From Terriglobia bacterium (GTDB lineage Bacteria; Acidobacteriota; Terriglobia; Bryobacterales; Bryobacteraceae): a stretch of 64,000 bases of DNA. Positions 54,033-63,840 of the stretch are shown piece by piece (position 1 is the stretch's first letter; every line of letters begins with the position of its first letter). The stretch lies in NCBI GenBank assembly GCA_021324185.1, contig JAJPJN010000011.1, positions 1 through 64,000 of the forward strand, in the 5' to 3' direction. The position numbers were made by a program, and so were the translations under genes. A model generated the notes under the pieces. It did not search any database. It was not told the origin of the DNA and saw only the letters and a list, made by a program, of their open reading frames with translations.

Positions 54033-55706
54033 ATGAAAATGGATCGCATTGCCGCAGTAGGTTTCGCGGTGTTGTTAGCTGCTTCGCTTGCACCGGCGCA
54101 ACGGAGCCGGGGCGCGGAAACGCAAGGCGAACAACAGGCGCCGAGTTCGCAGATGACCACTCCGCCGGCGCAAGCCCCGCAACGCGGCCAATTTTCGCAA
54201 ACGCAGCGCACGCAGATGCCGCAGGAGAGTCAGCCGCAGCTATCGGAAACCGGCCGCACGCAGGGCCCGGCGCGGTCCGCCGCACCACCGGTAGAGAAAA
54301 GTTCAGTGACTCACCACCATGCGCGCATCGGCGGCCAGGATATTCCGTATACCGCGACAGCCGCAACCTACGTGATCAAAGCCGATGACGGCACTCCGAA
54401 AGCAACGTTCTTCTTTGTCGCGTACACGCGCGACGGTGTGCAGGACATCGCGCACCGGCCTGTTTCTTTCATCTATAACGGTGGGCCCGGCTCGGCCTCG
54501 TTGTTCACCCACATGGGCCTCGGTCCACGCCGCGTAGTCCTCACTCCCGACGGCCATGGAATGCCCGCCCCATACGAGGTAGAGGACAATCGCGACTCGT
54601 TCCTGGATGCCACCGATATGGTCTTTGTCGACGCCATTTCCACCGGCTACAGCCGTCCAGCACCGGGCGAGAATCCGGCGCAGTTCCACGGCGTCATCGA
54701 GGATGCAAACTGGTTTGCCGATTTTATTTATGAATACATCACGCGCAATGCGCGTTGGGCCTCGCCGAAGTTTCTGATAGGTGAAAGCTACGGTACCACT
54801 CGGTCGGCTGAACTTTCCGGTGTTTTACAGAATCGCCACCAGATCTATTTGAACGGCATCGTTTTACTTTCGGCTGTTGCTTTCTCAAACTTCGGCGCCG
54901 ATGACCGCAGCATTTTCTTCCTGCCGACCTACGTTACCTCTGCCTGGTATCATCACCTGCTTGCGCCCGACCTGCAGAAGCTGAGTGTTGATGAGATCGC
55001 GCAAAAAGCACGCGAGTTCGCGCACGGCGAATACGCTCAGGCACTCGATAAAGGCGATCGCTTGTCGAAAGAGGAATATCAGAAGGTTGTAGCCGATATG
55101 GCGCGCTATACCGCTCTGTCTCCGAAATTCATTGAGGAGTGCAATCTGCGTGTCAGCCCGTTCCGCTGGTTCAGAGAACTGGAACGTGACAAGCGCCGCA
55201 CAGTGGGCCGGCTCGATTCGCGCTTTGAAGGCATGGAGGCCGATGCCGCTGGCGAGCGGGCGGAATACGATCCCAGCGAAGCCTCCTATGAGGGCGCGTA
55301 CGTTGCTGCCTTCCAGGATTACGTCCGCCGCGAGCTGAAGTGGGACAGCGATATGTACTACATCGTCACTGCCCGTGTACAGCCGTGGGATCAGACCGGC
55401 AATACCGCCGTCGCTGAAGTGTTGCGCGCCGCCATGACGCAGCAGACCTATTTGAAAGTGCTTGTGCTGTGTGGTTATTACGATCTGGCCACGCCCTTCA
55501 ACGGCATCGAGCACACGGTCAGTCACATGGGCCTCGAGCCGCCGATTCGCAAGAACATCAGCTTCGCTTACTACGAATCCGGGCACATGGTCTATATCGA
55601 TCAGAAAGCGGACGACAAGCTACGGCGCGACGTAGTTGGATTTATCAATTCCAGCTACAAGCACAACGGCGAAGAGCCGGTCTCGGCGGCACAGCAACAG
55701 CAGTAA
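54033..55706 (+). CDS. Exported S10 serine carboxypeptidase
   Basis: The 557-aa protein has a signal peptide and a Gln/Pro-rich linker, then the S10 hydrolase. The oxyanion region YNGGPGSASLFTHMGLGP, the nucleophile in IGESYGTTRSAEL, the acid in LCGYYDLATPFNG and the catalytic histidine in YYESGHMVYID are all present. S10 enzymes remove C-terminal amino acids at acid pH, which fits an acid-tolerant soil organism. A purine-rich GGGGAGA lies upstream of the ATG at a suitable spacing. It converges with the FHA/RodA operon. Confidence 0.93.
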   Translation: MKMDRIAAVGFAVLLAASLAPAQRSRGAETQGEQQAPSSQMTTPPAQAPQRGQFSQTQRTQMPQESQPQLSETGRTQGPARSAAPPVEKSSVTHHHARIGGQDIPYTATAATYVIKADDGTPKATFFFVAYTRDGVQDIAHRPVSFIYNGGPGSASLFTHMGLGPRRVVLTPDGHGMPAPYEVEDNRDSFLDATDMVFVDAISTGYSRPAPGENPAQFHGVIEDANWFADFIYEYITRNARWASPKFLIGESYGTTRSAELSGVLQNRHQIYLNGIVLLSAVAFSNFGADDRSIFFLPTYVTSAWYHHLLAPDLQKLSVDEIAQKAREFAHGEYAQALDKGDRLSKEEYQKVVADMARYTALSPKFIEECNLRVSPFRWFRELERDKRRTVGRLDSRFEGMEADAAGERAEYDPSEASYEGAYVAAFQDYVRRELKWDSDMYYIVTARVQPWDQTGNTAVAEVLRAAMTQQTYLKVLVLCGYYDLATPFNGIEHTVSHMGLEPPIRKNISFAYYESGHMVYIDQKADDKLRRDVVGFINSSYKHNGEEPVSAAQQQQ

Positions 55707-55730: not shown

Positions 55731-56540
55731 TCAGATCAATTCACTTCCCGCTTCAAACCGAATCACGGTTCTGCCGAGGTGAATTTCATCGCCCGAACGC
55801 AGCAGCGTCCCGCGCGTGCCGCGATGCACAGGTTGACTCAGGCCGTCGCGAACAATCCAGATGCCGCAGTTTGCCTCGCCTTTGTAGTTGCGGTCATTGA
55901 AAATGCGGCACTCACCCGTTCTCGACGACCGGAGGATATGCGCGTGCTCGCGGGAGACCGTTGCGTTGCGCTCGTTGTCTTCCGTAAACGCCAGATCGTT
56001 GCGGCGCGACGGGCCCCCGGCTCGAAAAACCTCCACTGTGCGGCCGATGTTCAATCTCGCCTTATTGATCGGCAGCTCCTGCACATTCGCCACGCCTTCT
56101 ATCACGACCAGCCTCGCGGCGCGGGCTTGCTCGCCGGCATTTTGCGGCTCCGGCTTTTGCTGCGCCGTCTCAACGACAATCCACGGTTCGCGCTCGAGCG
56201 GCAGGACAGACGTCGTTTGAATCTCCACCTGCAGATCGGCGGGAAAGCGATAGTGCGAGCGGCTTAAAGAGGTCTTGATTTCCTGTGCGAAGTAGGCGGC
56301 GAGAAAATCGCCTTCGAAAACATCGGCCTGATTCTCAGGCACGCCGCGTAGTTGAATGCGAATCAGGTTGAACGGGAATACGTGCTTGCCGCCGGCGCGG
56401 TGACTCTTTGCTTTCACTGCATCCAGCACCGCAATCCGAATCTCGGCCATTTCCGGGGCATCTTTCGACAGCCGGTTTGCGCCAAACGGCGTCTCAAAAA
56501 TCGCTTTGCCGAGTTTTTCAAAGACGGTGGAGATGGCCAT
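55731..56540 (-). CDS. FHA-domain protein (second of the operon)
   Basis: The 269-aa protein starts two bases after the RodA-PBP2 stop, preceded by GGAGG ten bases upstream. The N-terminal 130 residues form an alpha/beta part related to that of the first FHA protein of this operon (FPFNLIRIQLRGVPENQADVF). The C-terminal FHA domain has LNIGRTVEVF and the phosphothreonine-binding SREHAHI, but the usual N-G that follows the core is replaced by a longer loop (NYKGEANCGIW). FHA proteins bind phosphothreonine, so the likely ligand is a target or form of the operon kinase. It lies last in the operon. Confidence 0.82.
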   Translation of the reverse strand: MAISTVFEKLGKAIFETPFGANRLSKDAPEMAEIRIAVLDAVKAKSHRAGGKHVFPFNLIRIQLRGVPENQADVFEGDFLAAYFAQEIKTSLSRSHYRFPADLQVEIQTTSVLPLEREPWIVVETAQQKPEPQNAGEQARAARLVVIEGVANVQELPINKARLNIGRTVEVFRAGGPSRRNDLAFTEDNERNATVSREHAHILRSSRTGECRIFNDRNYKGEANCGIWIVRDGLSQPVHRGTRGTLLRSGDEIHLGRTVIRFEAGSELI

Positions 56541-56542
56541 TG

Positions 56543-59500
56543 CTACTGAGCCTCCGAGGAATTTGCTTTAATTATCCCCAATTGCTGCGCGGTCTCCACG
56601 ATTTGACGTGCAATCGGCGCTGCAAACCGGGCGCCGTAGCCGCCGTGCTCCACTATCACAGCAAACGCAATCTGCCGGTCCGGTGGTGCGCCATAGGGCG
56701 CGAAGCCGGCAAACCAGGAATGCGGATCGCCTGCGTCCAACTGGGCCGTTCCGGTTTTCCCGGCGACATCAATGCTTATGCCGGCCATCGCACTGCGAGC
56801 CGTTCCGCTTGTCACCACGGATCGCATGGCGCGTTGCAGAAACTCCGCGGAATCCGGAGCCAGAATCGATAGCGGCCGGTCCGTTCGCGTGTTGCTCGCA
56901 TCCATCACCCACCGGCCTTCCGCCATTGTGCCTCCATCGGCGATGGTTGCCGCAACGCGCGCCATCTTAAACGGGGTTGCCAGCAGCGGGCCTTGTCCGT
57001 AGGCGGCGAAGGGCATCATCTTTTTCAGATCCTTCAGCTCGCCTGATGGGATGCCCAACAATTCCGTTGTGTCGCGCAGCGCCTGCGCGCCGACATTGTA
57101 AACGCCGAGTTGCGCAAAATACGCATTGCATGAAACAGTGATCGCCTGTGCCATGTTCAGCGTGCCGTGCGCATGATCCTGAATATCGTCCCGAATCGGG
57201 CGCCTCCAACCCGGGATGATCGTGCCGGCTCTGCCATCGCCCAAGCCGTGGCAGTTGTACGTTTTCTGCGTCGCCCTGGGGTCCAGCCTCAGTGCAGCCA
57301 TGGCCGTAACTAATTTGAATGTCGATCCCGGCGGGTATTGCCCGTAGCGCGCACGGTCCAGCAATTCGTCAGGAGTTGGCGTGCCCGATAGCGGCGCAGG
57401 CCAGCCCACGAGGGCGAGCACATCACCACTGGCCGGGTTCATCACCACCAGCGCGCCTTTCTTGCCGGCGGCTTGTAATTGGTTCCGCAGAATTCCGGTC
57501 GCCTTCAATTGCAGCCGGATATCGATGGTCGTGTGAACGTCGCGATCTCGATTCATCAGCGCTTTGAGAAGCGGATTGCTCTTCTGATGCCGGTAGCGGA
57601 CCACGGGCGCCAAATCCGCATAATCCTTGTAGCCCTGCAACCGCGCATTGGAATCATGCTCGATAAGTGACGAGTTGGTGGCGTGAAAATTCTCACCCGT
57701 GCGCAGATCGCCTAAGAACAACACCAGCGCCGATCCGAACGGATATAGTCTGCTGTCCAGCCGCGGGCAGGCGGCATCGATGTTGATGCCCAATTTTTCA
57801 TATTCGGCGCGGTGCTTTTCCAGTTCCGCCCAGTTGCTTGTGGCAAGCAGTATCCCGTTACGATCGAAAATGTTGCCGCGTGGAATGGAAGCGGCAAGCA
57901 GGTTCAGGCGCGGGTTATGCTGTGGCCGCTTCACTCCATCTTGCGTGAACACATGAGCATCTTTGATCAGCAATGCCTCGTCTTGAACAGCTTCTAACGT
58001 GACTGCACGATAAACCAATGTCACTCCGCAGATGCCCAGCGCGCACGCCAATACAGTTGCGGGTATCTTAAAGAACGTCTTGAGCTCTTCTTCGCCCTCG
58101 CGCTCCTCCGGTTCATCAACCGCTTCGAGCTTAGCGGTCTGATGGGAAATGCCCGCTAGCACGGCGAAGATGAAGAAGTTCGCAAGCATCGCCGTGTTGC
58201 CGGAGCTCAAGAACGGCGACACGACGCCGGAGAGGGGAATCGCGCCCAGGACCCCGCCGGAGATCAACAGCATTTCAGACGAGAGCAGTGATGCGAGTCC
58301 AAGCCCCAAAAACATCGCGTACTCATCCGGCGCGCGCAGCGCGATCCGGAAGCTACGCCGCACCAGCAATGCGAACAACAAAAAGATCGTAAGCACGCCC
58401 GGTAAGCCCCACTCTTCGGCGATTGCGGGCAGCACTAAATCGGTGTGGCCGGCGGGAATTACGCTCGGGTCTCCCCAACCAGGACCAGATCCCCAAGGCC
58501 CTCCCGTAGCAAAGGCCCACAAAGAATGTGCGAGCTGGTCGCCGCCATGCACATTGTTGTCCCACGGCGAGAGCCACATGGCGACGCGGTCCACCACCGT
58601 ATGGGGAGTTCCCAACCGGTAACCGATTGAAACTCCCGCGACCAGCGCTGCAACGCCTAAAAGCGCCAGCCCCGCTCGCCCACGCGCAACGGCAAAGAGG
58701 CTCAAGAACACGAAACCCATCACCAGCGCGGGGCCCATGTCCTTCAGCACGAAAAACAACACCAGCGCGCAGGCTACGCCGCACATCACCGGCAGAGCAT
58801 CGCTGAATCGCGGGATGCGCAGCCAGCGCAGCAATGTGATCCGGGGATAAAGATCGCGCAATCGCTCCCAGTTCTGCGCGAAATATCCTGCCATAAAAAA
58901 GACCAGCAGGATCTTGACCGCTTCCACTGGCTGAAATGGTCCAAGATTCACCTTGGCGTCGCTGCCCGTAGGTCCGGAACCCAAAGCGAGCAGCGCGATA
59001 AACAGCGCGAGCGCCGCTAACAGCGGTGTGTAAACCCAGCGCGAATAGCGGCGGTAGTGAAATGCCCGGAAAAGCGGGAATAGAAGCGTGGCGCAGCCGG
59101 CCACAACTCCCCAGGCGAATTTCTGAAATTCGAGTGTGTCGCGCAGCGGGTCGCGCAGACTAATCATCAGAATCAAGCCCAAGCCCGTGAGCACGTGCAG
59201 CGCGGGTAAGATGGCGCCGTCGCCGCGAAAGCGGAACAAGCGCCAGGCGAAGTGAACAAACCAGAAGGCCGCTAGATAAGCTCCAGCCCAAATGGCGAAT
59301 CTCTTCGTAAATTCTCGCGGTGTCCGAACGATCAGCAGCGGCTTGAGCCTGGCTAACGGCATCAGCCGGGTATGTGCATCGGAATTGGGCAGACGAACAT
59401 GCGCTAGCGCCCCGACGTTCGGCAACGGCTTGTGCCGCAGCGAATAGTCATAGATCTGTTGCGCCAGCGCTGCCCGCTCATTTCCGTCAGCCACCATTTG

Positions 59501-59752
59501 TAAGGCAGGCAGTAGCTGATCCGGGTTTTGGAGTGTGTTTACATTCAGCAATTCGCCGCGCTGTAAGCGCTCTTGCAGTTCCGGAAAGTCTTGCGTCTTG
59601 GCAAAAAAAACAGCCACAAGCCCGCAAGCGACGACGAGCGAAGCTCCGCTTAGCCAAAAGAACTCACGTCTCCGCTCAATAGGCTTGGCCGGTGATTGAG
59701 CGCCGGCCAGCTTCGCCGTAAGCGCGCTCTCCCACGTTCTGGTTACAGCCAT
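56543..59752 (-). CDS. RodA/FtsW-PBP2 fusion: SEDS glycosyltransferase joined to class B PBP transpeptidase
   Basis: The 1069-aa protein combines both halves of a peptidoglycan synthase. An N-terminal span (about 32-50) is followed by an extracytoplasmic stretch of about 100 residues. The SEDS domain follows (about 150-535): FQPVEAVK at 273-280, KDMGPALV with Asp338, the GHTD loop near 435-438 and IPLSGVVSPFLSSG near 505-518. An acidic linker (about 540-556) and a single span (about 564-585) lead to the PBP domain with SxxK (GSTFK, Ser810/Lys813), SxN (Ser874-Cys-Asn876) and KTG (999-1001). All catalytic motifs of the transpeptidase are present. In most bacteria these halves are two proteins that form a complex. 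It is preceded by the kinase gene (six-base gap) and followed by the FHA gene (two bases). Confidence 0.93.
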   Translation of the reverse strand: MAVTRTWESALTAKLAGAQSPAKPIERRREFFWLSGASLVVACGLVAVFFAKTQDFPELQERLQRGELLNVNTLQNPDQLLPALQMVADGNERAALAQQIYDYSLRHKPLPNVGALAHVRLPNSDAHTRLMPLARLKPLLIVRTPREFTKRFAIWAGAYLAAFWFVHFAWRLFRFRGDGAILPALHVLTGLGLILMISLRDPLRDTLEFQKFAWGVVAGCATLLFPLFRAFHYRRYSRWVYTPLLAALALFIALLALGSGPTGSDAKVNLGPFQPVEAVKILLVFFMAGYFAQNWERLRDLYPRITLLRWLRIPRFSDALPVMCGVACALVLFFVLKDMGPALVMGFVFLSLFAVARGRAGLALLGVAALVAGVSIGYRLGTPHTVVDRVAMWLSPWDNNVHGGDQLAHSLWAFATGGPWGSGPGWGDPSVIPAGHTDLVLPAIAEEWGLPGVLTIFLLFALLVRRSFRIALRAPDEYAMFLGLGLASLLSSEMLLISGGVLGAIPLSGVVSPFLSSGNTAMLANFFIFAVLAGISHQTAKLEAVDEPEEREGEEELKTFFKIPATVLACALGICGVTLVYRAVTLEAVQDEALLIKDAHVFTQDGVKRPQHNPRLNLLAASIPRGNIFDRNGILLATSNWAELEKHRAEYEKLGINIDAACPRLDSRLYPFGSALVLFLGDLRTGENFHATNSSLIEHDSNARLQGYKDYADLAPVVRYRHQKSNPLLKALMNRDRDVHTTIDIRLQLKATGILRNQLQAAGKKGALVVMNPASGDVLALVGWPAPLSGTPTPDELLDRARYGQYPPGSTFKLVTAMAALRLDPRATQKTYNCHGLGDGRAGTIIPGWRRPIRDDIQDHAHGTLNMAQAITVSCNAYFAQLGVYNVGAQALRDTTELLGIPSGELKDLKKMMPFAAYGQGPLLATPFKMARVAATIADGGTMAEGRWVMDASNTRTDRPLSILAPDSAEFLQRAMRSVVTSGTARSAMAGISIDVAGKTGTAQLDAGDPHSWFAGFAPYGAPPDRQIAFAVIVEHGGYGARFAAPIARQIVETAQQLGIIKANSSEAQ

Positions 59753-59758
59753 CTGACG

Positions 59759-61738
59759 CTACCTATAAACTCGCCAGTGAATGCTGAGGTGCTTGGGGCG
59801 CGCATGAGGCGTTGGGCCGATGTGCAAAACCGCGGTTTCCAATTTCACTTGCTCTGCTTGATCTTCCTGCAGCTTTTCAAGCGCCTCGCTGACGTTCGAA
59901 AAGCCGGCAATCGGTTCGTAGAGGTTGCGCGCGCGGTCCATGTCATCGCGCGCCATAGTCAGCCATTTAGCCCGCTCGGCCGTTGCCGAAGCCTGCAGTT
60001 TTTTTACTTTCGCTAGCTCAGTCTCGGCGCGGAACAGGTAGCCGTCGCCTTCCTCGGCCGCTTCTCTCGGGCCTAATTTGTAACCCAATCGCTCTGCCTG
60101 ATGCAACTCCGCAACGGCCTTACCCACGTTGTGGAAATAAGTAACGTAGGCGCGAGCCAGCGCCAGATGCGGATCCGGGGATTGCGGGATGTACGAGACG
60201 GCCTGATCGAAATATTGCATGCCTGCCTGCCCGCCATTCCGCGCCAGCGCAATATAGCCGTTCACGAGCGCGAGTTTCCCCTTGCTTGTCGTGTCGTCCG
60301 GATTAATATTCAAGGCTCTCTCGAGGCAGAGCCTCGCCTTGGCCCAACCAAAATCTTTCAGGCGCGCATCGGTGCTGCCGCGGAACTGATCCAGAATGTT
60401 GTCTGCCGCATTCAGCAGGTTGTTTCGCATGAACACATCCAAATCGGCAACCGGAGCCAATTGCCTCAATATGCCGCCGCGCTCTTTCAGTTGTTTGTAT
60501 AAAGTCCAGTCCGCGTCAATAACGGAGGAATTCTGGTGGGCGTAGTCCTTGCCGATTCGTAACTTCGCGGCAGAAGTCCAGAACCAGTAGTAATAAGTAA
60601 GTGGGATCAGGATCAGAAGTCCGGCCAGAATGCCGGCCAGCAAAGCGATGGCGATGTTATAAAACTCAGTCAACTTCCGCTTTGCTTTGACCGGTACGGA
60701 TTTTGTGGCTGCCTTCACCGTTGCCTTAGTGGGCGCGCCGTTCGATGCGGGCAAACCGTTCTTAACGGCGGTTGCATTCGCATCCCACGCGGGCTGCCGC
60801 TCGCTCTCTGCCGCCGTGGCCTGTCTTTTCAGAAAGGCCTGCAGATCGCTTTCAAATGCCTGTGCGGAGCTGTATCGTCTCTCGATAGCGGCCGCCAATG
60901 ATTTCGCTACAATCGCCTTCAATGCCGCCGGGCAACTTTCTGGGAGCGCTCGCGGTGGGCGCCGCGATTGGATGAGGTTTTCCAGCCTCCGCGTATCCTG
61001 TGCCTGATAAGGCGGCATGCCGGCAAGCATCTCGTAAAGACTTACACCTAGCGCCCATAAGTCGGCGTGCTGATCTACTTGCGACTTGCTAATTCGTTCC
61101 GGCGAGCAGTAACTGGGGCTGCCTAAGTTGTGATGTGTCAGGTTGTGTGTCGAAGTGATAACCTTCGCTATGCCGAAATCGAGCAGCCGTAACTCATCGT
61201 GCGGGCTGATCTGCACGTTAGATGGTTTAATATCGCCATGGACAACTGCGGTTCGGCGCCCATCCAGGTCGGATATAAAGGAATGCAGCGTCCGTAATTG
61301 GCTGCAAATCTCAGCGGCATAGCGCGCCGCCCGCTTTGGCTCGATCCGGCCTTCGGCCTGTAGAAGCTCTGCCAGCGTTCGACCTTCGAAGTATTCCATC
61401 GCGACGAAGAAGCAGCCATTCTGCTCGCCGAATTCGTAGATCTCAAGAATGCGGCGGTCGAGCGCGTGCAATTGCTTCTGCAGCAGAGCGCCGCGCCGCT
61501 CGGCCTCGATGATGGTTTGCGTGTAGTCGTCGCTCGAGTGTTCGATCAGCTTTAAAACAACGGTTCGCCCGGCCTCGGTATCGCGGGCCAGATATACGTC
61601 GGTCATGCTGCGGCTCAGTTTGCGCGTGATCTCATATTTCCCGAATGTCTTCAGGAAGCCGCGCGACCCGGGTGGCGCTGCAGGCGAACCCGGCTGCCCC
61701 ACGTCGCCTAACGCCAAAACCGCTGTATCCCGATGCAT
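59759..61738 (-). CDS. Membrane Ser/Thr protein kinase (Pkn-like) with C-terminal extracytoplasmic domain
   Basis: Starts at ATG 61738 (or GTG 61702, which would avoid the 31-base overlap with the phosphatase). The kinase has the beta-3 lysine (VVLKLIE, Lys63), the catalytic loop as VVHGDIKPSN (HGD in place of HRD, Asp169), DFG (187-189) and the YCSPERIS activation-loop end. The glycine-rich loop is degenerate (KLSRSMTDVYLA), without the usual glycines. A single span (about 370-400, LLAGILAGLLILIPLTYYYWF) leads to a soluble tail with helical repeat-like segments (ARLKDFGWAKARLCLERAL) rather than PASTA domains. It probably signals with the adjacent PP2C and FHA proteins to control cell-wall synthesis. 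Confidence 0.88.
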   Translation of the reverse strand: MHRDTAVLALGDVGQPGSPAAPPGSRGFLKTFGKYEITRKLSRSMTDVYLARDTEAGRTVVLKLIEHSSDDYTQTIIEAERRGALLQKQLHALDRRILEIYEFGEQNGCFFVAMEYFEGRTLAELLQAEGRIEPKRAARYAAEICSQLRTLHSFISDLDGRRTAVVHGDIKPSNVQISPHDELRLLDFGIAKVITSTHNLTHHNLGSPSYCSPERISKSQVDQHADLWALGVSLYEMLAGMPPYQAQDTRRLENLIQSRRPPRALPESCPAALKAIVAKSLAAAIERRYSSAQAFESDLQAFLKRQATAAESERQPAWDANATAVKNGLPASNGAPTKATVKAATKSVPVKAKRKLTEFYNIAIALLAGILAGLLILIPLTYYYWFWTSAAKLRIGKDYAHQNSSVIDADWTLYKQLKERGGILRQLAPVADLDVFMRNNLLNAADNILDQFRGSTDARLKDFGWAKARLCLERALNINPDDTTSKGKLALVNGYIALARNGGQAGMQYFDQAVSYIPQSPDPHLALARAYVTYFHNVGKAVAELHQAERLGYKLGPREAAEEGDGYLFRAETELAKVKKLQASATAERAKWLTMARDDMDRARNLYEPIAGFSNVSEALEKLQEDQAEQVKLETAVLHIGPTPHARPKHLSIHWRVYR

Positions 61739-62634
61739 AACACGATTCCCAAGATGATGCCGATTAACACCAAACACGCATCTTTAAAGATAGATCGCCA
61801 ACGCCGGCCGCCGGTTCGCACCCTGGTCACGGCATGGCGCTGCCGTGCCGCAGTCGCGTTTGCGGCCATGCGCCCTACGAACTCCGGTCCCGGCACGAAC
61901 ACAACGCTGACGTTATCTTTCCCTCCTGCCCGGTTGGCCGCCTCCACCAGTTGCTGCGCTACAGCGTCCGGATCACCATCATAAGATTCGACAATCGAGG
62001 AGATCTGCGCGGAGGTCAGAGAATCGCTCAGCCCATCACTGCACAGCAGCAGCGCCGCATCCGGCCGGAACAGGAAACTCTTGGTCTCGACAAAATCTGG
62101 ATCATCCGCGCTGCGTATCTGCGACCCCACATCCCGGTACACTTCGTTGCGCCGTGGATGGTGCATTGCTTCTTCCTCGGTCAGTTCGTGATGGTCTTCC
62201 TTCTCTCCCACTGGCGAATGGTCCGAAGTTATCTTGCGCAGTTCTCCGTTCCAGGCCAGGTACAACCGGGAATCACCTACGTGTCCCACGATGACGCGAT
62301 CGTCGCGCGCCACCGCCATAGTCAGAACACAGGCCATGCCGTTGCATTCCGCATGTTCCTGTGCCAGTTGATAGATCTCGTTGTTGGCCGCTGAAATTGC
62401 TTCGCGGACCTTATGCTCCAGATCGCCCTCGCCGTCAAAAGCGGCGAGTCGCTCCTGAACTACTTGCACTGCCGTCTCGGCTGCGGTTTCGCCGGCCGCA
62501 TGCCCTCCCAGACCGTCGGCCACGAGAAACACACCATGCGTCTCATCGGCGAACGCGCGGTCTTCATTCACCGATCGCTGCAGCCCCCGATCTGACGCAA
62601 CTCCTGCCCGCCACATCGTGTTTGTCTCCATCAT
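61708..62634 (-). CDS. PP2C-family Ser/Thr phosphatase with C-terminal membrane span (PstP-like)
   Basis: The 308-aa protein carries the PP2C motifs: SDRGLQRSVNEDRAF (first metal-binding acid), VADGLGGHAAGE, the GHVGDSRLYLAWNGEL strand, LLLCSDGLSDSL and KDNVSVVFV. The metal-binding aspartates (VADG, CSDG, KDN) are complete. One transmembrane span (LVLIGIILGIVLCIGIQRF) ends the protein, so the phosphatase faces the cytoplasm. The ATG at 62634 overlaps the stop of the 29-aa microprotein; a further in-frame ATG at 62616 follows GGAGA at eight bases and may be the real start. It presumably reverses phosphorylation by the adjacent kinase. Confidence 0.92.
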   Translation of the reverse strand: MMETNTMWRAGVASDRGLQRSVNEDRAFADETHGVFLVADGLGGHAAGETAAETAVQVVQERLAAFDGEGDLEHKVREAISAANNEIYQLAQEHAECNGMACVLTMAVARDDRVIVGHVGDSRLYLAWNGELRKITSDHSPVGEKEDHHELTEEEAMHHPRRNEVYRDVGSQIRSADDPDFVETKSFLFRPDAALLLCSDGLSDSLTSAQISSIVESYDGDPDAVAQQLVEAANRAGGKDNVSVVFVPGPEFVGRMAANATAARQRHAVTRVRTGGRRWRSIFKDACLVLIGIILGIVLCIGIQRFWR

Positions 62635-62720
62635 TTTGACCCGCGCCAGTTGAAAAGCACAAACGCGGCGACAAACAGCAGCAGCAGAACATGAACCGGA
62701 TGTGCAGCGAGCAGCGTCAT
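62631..62720 (-). CDS. 29-aa single-span microprotein with ATGA overlaps on both sides
   Basis: This short frame starts with ATG at 62720 and stops with TGA at 62633-62631. Its start overlaps the stop of the FHA gene (ATGA), and its stop overlaps the ATG of the PP2C gene (ATGA). The product is a hydrophobic helix (HVLLLLFVAAFVLF, bracketed by MTLLAAHPV before and NWRGSK after), long enough to cross a membrane once. The flanking basic residues suggest the C-terminus stays in the cytoplasm. No family is recognised. The precise double overlap and the operon position argue strongly that it is translated and may assist the kinase/phosphatase/PBP membrane complex. Confidence 0.6.
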   Translation of the reverse strand: MTLLAAHPVHVLLLLFVAAFVLFNWRGSK

Positions 62721-63556
62721 TTGCGTGCTTCGAACACCAGTGTGATCACTTCGCCGACACCGATATTCGCCCGCCCCGGAAGCATCTCGGGCGCTCCCTT
62801 GCGCAGGCGCTTGCCATCGACGGAGGTTCCGTTTGTGCTCAAATCGGTGATGGAAAAGATGCCGCTAGCCGGATCGCGCTGTATGACCAGGTGCTCGCGC
62901 GACACTTCGTCATTGGTGTACAAGGCAAGGTCCACCGGTTGATCATTGCCGCCGCGCCCAATACGTACTCGATTCTGTGTCATCAAGTACACCTGCGGGC
63001 CGGAATCGTCTTCATAACGAATTTCAGCGAAAGTTGTATCCCCCGTGAAGCCACTTGAGCCCTGAGGGCCCGTGGTTCGATGACCGGTGGTTCGATGACC
63101 GGAAACCACCGGCTCGCGGCCCAGCAGCGTCGTCTTAGTACCCCGGTATCCAGGCTCCGCCGTTTCGTTGAGTTCGGAGTGAATCTCAACGTCGCCCTGC
63201 GGCACTTCCGGTTCAGGCAGGAATTCGATACTCCAGTCGCGGCACGCAATTTTAAATTCCTTTGCCGCCTTCGCTCGCCGCTTAATCCCAAGCACGCCGC
63301 TGTCACTGTTCAGTTCCGCAACGCGCGCGCGCAATGCCTTCTTGGCATCTTCGATCACCAGATCAAAGACACCGCGCAGCATGGAATGATCCTGAGGACT
63401 GAGATAGACCGTAAAGACGCACGGAAGCAGCACGGTGTAGGTCATCTCGAAACGGCCCAACTCCATGTTGCGCATGAGTTCGCCGATGATCACGTTGCCG
63501 TTCAGGCGCGCTTCGCCCAGTTTCGTGCCGCCAAGTTTTGGCTTGTGCTGCCCCAA
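62717..63556 (-). CDS. FhaA-like FHA-domain protein (first gene of the operon)
   Basis: The TTG at 63556 gives a 279-aa protein; a later in-frame GTG or ATG is possible. The N-terminal part (about 1-125; YTVLLPCVFTVYLSPQDHSML) resembles the DUF3662-type domain of mycobacterial FhaA. A variable linker contains a GHRTT duplication. The C-terminal FHA domain has VRIGRGGNDQPVDLAL, SREHLVI and DLSTNGTSVDG, all of the phosphothreonine-contacting residues. FhaA binds phosphorylated partners in cell-wall synthesis, which fits this operon. It overlaps the microprotein by four bases. Confidence 0.85.
   Translation of the reverse strand: MGQHKPKLGGTKLGEARLNGNVIIGELMRNMELGRFEMTYTVLLPCVFTVYLSPQDHSMLRGVFDLVIEDAKKALRARVAELNSDSGVLGIKRRAKAAKEFKIACRDWSIEFLPEPEVPQGDVEIHSELNETAEPGYRGTKTTLLGREPVVSGHRTTGHRTTGPQGSSGFTGDTTFAEIRYEDDSGPQVYLMTQNRVRIGRGGNDQPVDLALYTNDEVSREHLVIQRDPASGIFSITDLSTNGTSVDGKRLRKGAPEMLPGRANIGVGEVITLVFEARK
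63073..63102. repeat. 15-bp tandem duplication inside the fhaA-like gene
   Basis: Two exact copies of GTGGTTCGATGACCG (63073-63087 and 63088-63102) lie in the linker region of the FHA protein and encode two copies of a five-residue unit (H-R-T-T-G). The length is a multiple of three, so the frame is kept. Such a duplication could vary in copy number. Confidence 0.7.
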
Positions 63557-63762: not shown

Positions 63763-63840
63763 TGGGGCGGCTGGTGGGATTCGAACCCACGACATCCAGA
63801 ACCACAATCTGGCGCTACTACCAACTGAGCTACAGCCGCC
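63763..63840 (-). tRNA. tRNA-His (GTG)
   Basis: The minus strand folds into a full cloverleaf with anticodon GTG. The acceptor stem GCGGCTG/CAGCCGC is preceded by the extra G(-1) opposite C73, the histidine-specific identity pair. A T-arm with TTCGAAT and an encoded CCA end (63763-63765) are present. It lies between the priA-like gene end and the FHA operon on the same strand. Confidence 0.95.

Follow-up and report, generated by a model that had tools for sequence, protein, structure and literature searches.

The first 64,000 nt of contig JAJPJN010000011.1, which we call the window, come from a Terriglobia bacterium of the family Bryobacteraceae whose draft genome (GCA_021324185.1) spans 4.7 Mb in 184 contigs and is 97% complete. 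The minus strand carries, in order, genes for a forkhead-associated (FHA) protein, a 29-residue membrane microprotein, a PP2C phosphatase, a Ser/Thr kinase, a fusion of a shape, elongation, division and sporulation (SEDS) glycosyltransferase to a penicillin-binding protein (PBP) transpeptidase, and a second FHA protein (Table 1). An earlier note on this DNA had listed five open reading frames (ORFs), all of which were found at or close to the places it gave; the distal FHA protein, at 55731-56540, falls slightly outside the interval of 56543-63556 that it considered. The operon is a conserved, uncharacterised variant related to the mycobacterial cluster that encodes similar proteins.

Pairs of SEDS proteins and class B PBPs polymerise and cross-link peptidoglycan. 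In the window both partners share one uninterrupted frame: a domain search placed PF01098 at residues 187-539 (E 4.7e-47) and PF00905 at residues 766-1053 (E 1.7e-39) with no stop between them, which bears out the single chain of 1069 residues described in the earlier note. All transpeptidase motifs are present, as had been claimed (S810xxK813, S874xN876 and K999TG, the last within K999TGT). Among aligned fusions, SxxK and SxN occur in 61/61 rows and KTG in 60/61, the exception being one aberrant row. However, Asp338, which had been named as the SEDS catalytic residue, is the wrong one. The catalytic Asp is D438, in an HTD motif that lines up with its Pseudomonas FtsW equivalent, and its counterpart is D262 of E. 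coli RodA (PMC10449877). D338 is the Asp of the DxG motif and corresponds to D159 in E. coli, a residue at which mutation lowers activity (PMC10449877). Both D438 and D338 are invariant in the alignment (61/61 fusions each). With PF01098, a core of ten transmembrane (TM) helices and a catalytic Asp in HTD, the protein belongs to the SEDS polymerase superfamily, and PF00905 with SxxK, SxN and KTG makes it a class B PBP as well.

Counting the fusion, the genome holds three SEDS genes and five genes with a transpeptidase domain. Each of the other two SEDS genes has a transpeptidase gene on the same contig, and trees together with this pairing identify RodA/PBP2 on contig 106 and FtsW/FtsI on contig 35. 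Since these separate pairs are present, the fusion is an extra one: a third, accessory SEDS-class B PBP pair. It scored far below the equivalog cut-offs for RodA (TIGR02210, 121.1 vs. 336.7 bits) and FtsW (157.7 vs. 337.5 bits), as did its C-terminal half for PBP2 (TIGR03423, 184 vs. 455 bits). The SEDS halves of the fusions group together as a single clade in the SEDS tree (100/100), and a further branch (100/100) sets them, with the RodA of the actinobacterial cluster and a Monoglobus protein, apart from all canonical FtsW and RodA. Approximately unbiased (AU) tests rejected grouping the fusion with the RodA of E. coli and of its own genome (p 1.25e-4) or with FtsW (p 1.1e-6). Equivalog scores and AU tests thus reject canonical RodA as the identity of the SEDS half. 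Of the "RodA-PBP2" fusion in the earlier note, the union of SEDS protein and transpeptidase in one chain stands, while the canonical RodA/PBP2 identity does not, given these scores and the separate pairs in the genome. Judged from its sequence, the SEDS half is homologous to the RodA of the actinobacterial PknA/PknB cluster, and not canonical RodA or FtsW. The transpeptidase halves likewise form one clade, which branches with actinobacterial PbpA in the best tree (96/83), with alternatives not rejected. At an E-value of 0.01 the window fusion gave no report of PBP_dimer (PF03717), which the genome's own PBP2 and FtsI carry, nor of PBP_dimer_2 (PF21922), which is found in PbpA of Tsukamurella (L160) and Actinomyces oris (L163). 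A separate SEDS gene with a long branch in the same tree, a 525-residue frame in genome G106 (L215:6497-8074), has no recognised transpeptidase nearby.

A scan of the genome collection turned up relatives of the fusion at 294 loci, and the best 80 of these 294 were kept. All 80 are labelled Acidobacteriota or one of its subgroups, except for one Opitutaceae metagenome-assembled genome (MAG). Where a neighbour could be tested, a Ser/Thr kinase (STPK) was found in 76/78 loci, PP2C in 69/74, FHA_N in 64/66 and FHA_C in 71/73, and all four types accompany the fusion in 54 of the 80. This operon pattern is not chance. Fusion and neighbours, whose lack of conservation would by the earlier note's own account have told against it, are both conserved in relatives. 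The same order recurs in several Acidobacteriota families and on a Bacteroidota plasmid, the 137-kb unnamed7 of Spirosoma oryzicola (L159:2739-13295), which encodes FHA, PP2C, two kinases, a 1323-residue fusion and FHA. G106 has the genes in a rearranged order, and in G113 nothing beyond PP2C and a divergent fusion could be recognised. Within the family of the window's genome, 43/120 well-complete genomes have the fusion among the matches listed at E <= 1e-170, and over a dozen family genomes seem to hold two copies. In some Bryobacterales genomes the operon occurs twice, in diverged form (L083 and L093, L074 and L086, L065 and L108), with fusions that are ~55-58% and 47-48% identical to that of the window. 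A phylum-wide draw of 297 contained the fusion in the window's genome and seven others.

Three further observations concern individual relatives. The N-terminal part of the Spirosoma fusion has a weak match to CarboxypepD_reg. The fusion in the MAG labelled Opitutaceae (Verrucomicrobiota; L082) is 54-56% identical to that of the window, and a mislabel, a misbin or a transfer could each account for it. An apparent triple fusion with the downstream FHA protein (L077:8001-12185) was dismissed, as the ORF contains an unknown letter (X) at the junction, probably an assembly gap.

The earlier note had likened the locus to the mycobacterial fhaA-fhaB-pstP-rodA-pbpA-pknA-pknB cluster, an actinobacterial locus that governs wall synthesis and division (PMC6554272). 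The likeness holds for gene content. As represented by Tsukamurella (L160) and Actinomyces oris (L163), that cluster shares with the window an FhaA-like protein, a further FHA protein, a PP2C with a TM helix, a SEDS protein, a class B PBP and a membrane kinase, and hydrophobic segments precede the SEDS core in both its RodA and the window fusion. For two components the relationship goes beyond resemblance to homology: the SEDS half, by its tree, and the first FHA protein, whose aligned members match FHA in 18/18 and FhaA_N in 13/18 cases (best FhaA_N E 2.2e-7). The likeness does not extend to gene order, with the second FHA gene last in the window and a microprotein and a periplasmic cap domain added. 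FhaA, FhaB, RodA, PbpA and two kinases are all separate genes in the Tsukamurella and Actinomyces plasmid records, and one of the two kinases in the actinobacterial cluster has PASTA domains, whereas the window has the fusion and one kinase in which no PASTA was found. Between its FhaB and RodA genes each of these records has a PP2C gene, which is annotated in Actinomyces and was found by profile in Tsukamurella.

Natural SEDS-PBP fusions have been mentioned before, with the Rhodococcus RHA1 genome cited (PMC10449877). Our comparison with Rhodococcus was made with a plasmid copy from Rhodococcus pseudokoreensis (L162:5477-8317). Like the window fusion, this 946-residue SEDS-PBP chain is a single ORF. 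Unlike it, quick trees placed its SEDS half with canonical RodA and its transpeptidase half with E. coli PBP2, it has PBP_dimer, and it lacks kinase and FHA neighbours. A common origin is not supported by the quick trees of either half, and the Rhodococcus plasmid gene appears to be an independent fusion event. Engineered single chains of SEDS and class B PBP are functional (PMC6207328, PMC10449877), but the RodA-PBP2 and SpoVE-SpoVD constructs are artificial joins of canonical elongation or sporulation enzymes, while the fusion in the window is natural. In an FHA-RodA-PBP trio of Monoglobus (L164), FHA adjoins a SEDS gene of the actinobacterial-cluster type in the tree, as in the window; the trio is unfused and has no kinase or phosphatase within the annotated stretch. 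Open-licence PMC papers yielded no Acidobacteriota or Bacteroidota operon of this kind and no natural SEDS-PBP fusion beyond PMC10449877, an absence that carries little weight.

Using 61 sequences, AlphaFold2 modelled the full fusion with a mean pLDDT of 89.8 and a pTM of 0.83. Interpreting the helices of this model as topology, we read the chain as a cytoplasmic tail, a TM helix (25-53), a cap domain (54-144), a TM helix (145-172), the SEDS core (181-544), a long helix (548-589) and the transpeptidase. The cap is thus bracketed by two extra N-terminal TM helices. Modelled alone, the cap domain reached a pLDDT of 85.9; it matches no Pfam family and has no Foldseek match at E <= 0.001. Its structural matches among the VIA rows are weak (Z 4.6-6.3), the best being GspK and PsbU-type chains, with KIF22 and Mus81-Eme1 also present. 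Several of these we take to be helix-hairpin-helix folds, but the matches are too weak to assign the cap. In a fold search with the whole model, the matches were filled by transpeptidases, and the top Foldseek match was PBPA of M. tuberculosis. The cytoplasmic tail begins MAVTRT in the window and MAVTRS in most fusions, following the pattern MA-V/I-T-R/K-S. While most of the tail is variable, Thr4 is kept in 42/43 rows with a residue at that position, and this conservation suggests it as a candidate phospho-acceptor.

Table 1. Features of the operon and of the fusion protein in the window.
Feature	Coordinates	Strand	Basis
FhaA-like protein (DUF3662/FhaA_N-like N-domain, C-terminal FHA)	62717..63556	-	PF00498, E 2.8e-11
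Microprotein, 29 aa, single TM, MTLLAAHPVHVLLLLFVAAFVLFNWRGSK	62631..62720	-	ATGA overlap with FHA stop
PP2C Ser/Thr phosphatase with C-terminal TM	61708..62634	-	PF00481, E 7.3e-19
Membrane Ser/Thr kinase	59759..61777	-	PF00069, E 1.2e-40
SEDS glycosyltransferase-class B PBP transpeptidase fusion, 1069 aa	56543..59752	-	PF01098 and PF00905
Thr4 of cytoplasmic tail, candidate phospho-acceptor	59741..59743	-	Alignment
Periplasmic cap domain, residues 54-144	59321..59593	-	AlphaFold2 models
10-TM SEDS core, residues 181-544	58121..59212	-	Pfam, alignment, AlphaFold2
Second conserved Asp338	58739-58741	-	Alignment
Catalytic Asp438	58439-58441	-	HTD alignment
Long TM helix, residues 548-589, joining SEDS core to periplasmic transpeptidase	57986..58111	-	AlphaFold2
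Transpeptidase domain	56594..57457	-	Pfam, motifs S810xxK813, S874xN876, K999TG
Second FHA protein, FHA in C-terminal half	55731..56540	-	Motifs in alignment, PF00498 in orthologs

In the first FHA protein of the window, FHA itself is recognised and the FhaA_N match (E 0.0054) stays under the cut-off. The second FHA protein scores nothing in Pfam when searched alone, but 12/17 aligned orthologs match PF00498, and the ortholog alignment contains the GR/VSREHAH motifs; its FhaB match is weak (E 0.0011). The microprotein posited in the earlier note is real: it has 29 residues and a single TM helix, and a hydrophobic ORF of 27-39 residues occupies the same site in 40/64 operons, most of these ORFs starting 4 nt ahead of the end of the FHA stop (an offset of -4). 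The PP2C scored 212.9 bits against the Stp1 family (cut-off 230). Its five metal- or active-site Asp residues are each kept in at least 64/65 sequences, and its TM helix lies at residues 285-303. In the window the protein ends after this helix, while about two thirds of orthologs continue for 200-300 residues into an ectodomain that is lost or absent here. The kinase consists of a kinase domain, a TM helix (375-393) and a C-terminal ectodomain with a weak TPR-like stretch (TPR_19, E 0.0088). Which start codon it uses is uncertain, as kinase homology sets in only near residue 43. The catalytic D182, N187 and DFG are invariant, K76 is present in every row with a residue there, and HGD replaces HRD in 76/80. 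A profile search found no PASTA match, and with 201 bits for the PknB family (cut-off 450) the protein falls outside the PASTA kinases.

A peptidase S10 (serine carboxypeptidase) ORF at 54033-55706 adjoins the operon on the opposite strand, and a tRNA-His gene (63763-63839) lies directly upstream. The tRNA was considered as a conserved insertion site and rejected, as no tRNA was present in 19 related loci. A scan for promoters and terminators found no excess over shuffled sequences.

We consider it likely that the operon encodes an accessory peptidoglycan synthase, with SEDS polymerase and class B transpeptidase in one polypeptide, together with its own signalling module of a membrane Ser/Thr kinase, a membrane PP2C, two FHA readers of phospho-Thr and a single-TM microprotein. 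The synthase would be phospho-regulated and independent of MreC and the divisome; this activity, phosphorylation and role we infer from its homologs and neighbours. The fused protein would polymerise lipid II and cross-link the product. The kinase ectodomain would sense an envelope cue, and the kinase would phosphorylate the synthase or a partner, with Thr4 of the fusion tail as the best candidate site. The FHA proteins could then bind the phosphorylated form and recruit or gate the synthase, and the PP2C would reset the phosphorylation. The fusion would act beside, not in place of, the RodA/PBP2 and FtsW/FtsI pairs.

The earlier note had seen the canonical elongasome pair RodA-PBP2, fused and then put under mycobacterial-type kinase control. 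The domain content fits such a pair, NCBIfam pbp2_mrdA is the top-scoring family for the C-terminal half, and the transpeptidase tree is compatible with kinship to PBP2. Yet a separate RodA and PBP2 are present in the genome, grouping of the fusion SEDS with canonical RodA was rejected by the AU test quoted above, and the PBP_dimer domain of the genome's own PBP2 and FtsI was not reported in the fusion; we regard this origin as quite improbable. An assembly artefact or a decaying gene might be suspected in a draft of so many contigs, but the same single-ORF fusion is found in dozens of independent assemblies, including the single-contig G174 and the isolates Occallatibacter savannae and Spirosoma oryzicola, and such an explanation is hardly credible. 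An unlikely account, to which the extra periplasmic cap, the dedicated signalling genes and the patchy, sometimes two-copy distribution lend something, makes the fusion a sensor: it would bind lipid II or beta-lactams and pass a signal to the kinase module, with catalysis as a secondary function. Against this, the glycosyltransferase and transpeptidase catalytic residues are essentially invariant in the 61 fusions, and a protein that only senses would have no need of the two sets.

More serious, if still doubtful, is the idea that membrane partners (the microprotein and the cap) control the synthase while the kinase, PP2C and FHA proteins act mainly elsewhere, for instance on lipid II export, as has been suggested for mycobacterial FhaA and MurJ. 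The phospho-targets tied to the phosphatase of the mycobacterial cluster include MurJ, CwlM and FhaA (PMC6554272), and both microprotein and cap are conserved. So, however, is Thr4 in the cytoplasmic tail of the fusion, and the signalling genes share a tight operon with the fusion gene in different phyla. Several points weigh against a phospho-regulated accessory synthase. The proposed regulatory link is drawn from synteny and homology, and a kinase without PASTA means that the mycobacterial cue is not simply transferable. The operon is patchy even within the family, so its job is conditional. The fusion branch in the SEDS tree is long and may have been subject to some pull, and the transpeptidase tree accommodates a grouping with PBP2 or with FtsI (AU p ~0.68). 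A broader proposal, slightly easier to doubt than to accept, is that these proteins form a third class of SEDS-class B PBP: permanently fused, part of a self-contained and transferable module under kinase, phosphatase and FHA control, independent of Mre and Fts proteins in Acidobacteriota and Bacteroidota, and sharing ancestry with the mycobacterial cluster.

In phyla with an outer membrane, beyond the Actinobacteria, an accessory synthase of this kind would put peptidoglycan synthesis under a Ser/Thr phospho-switch dedicated to it. As a naturally fused single chain with a built-in 1:1 stoichiometry, the protein offers material for studies of structure and enzymology. Since its catalytic sites are known and the synthase is an accessory one, effects of the cluster's kinase, PP2C and FHA proteins on wall synthesis could be tested without killing the cell, and in a non-pathogen. 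Insights gained in this way may also bear on the essential mycobacterial cluster.

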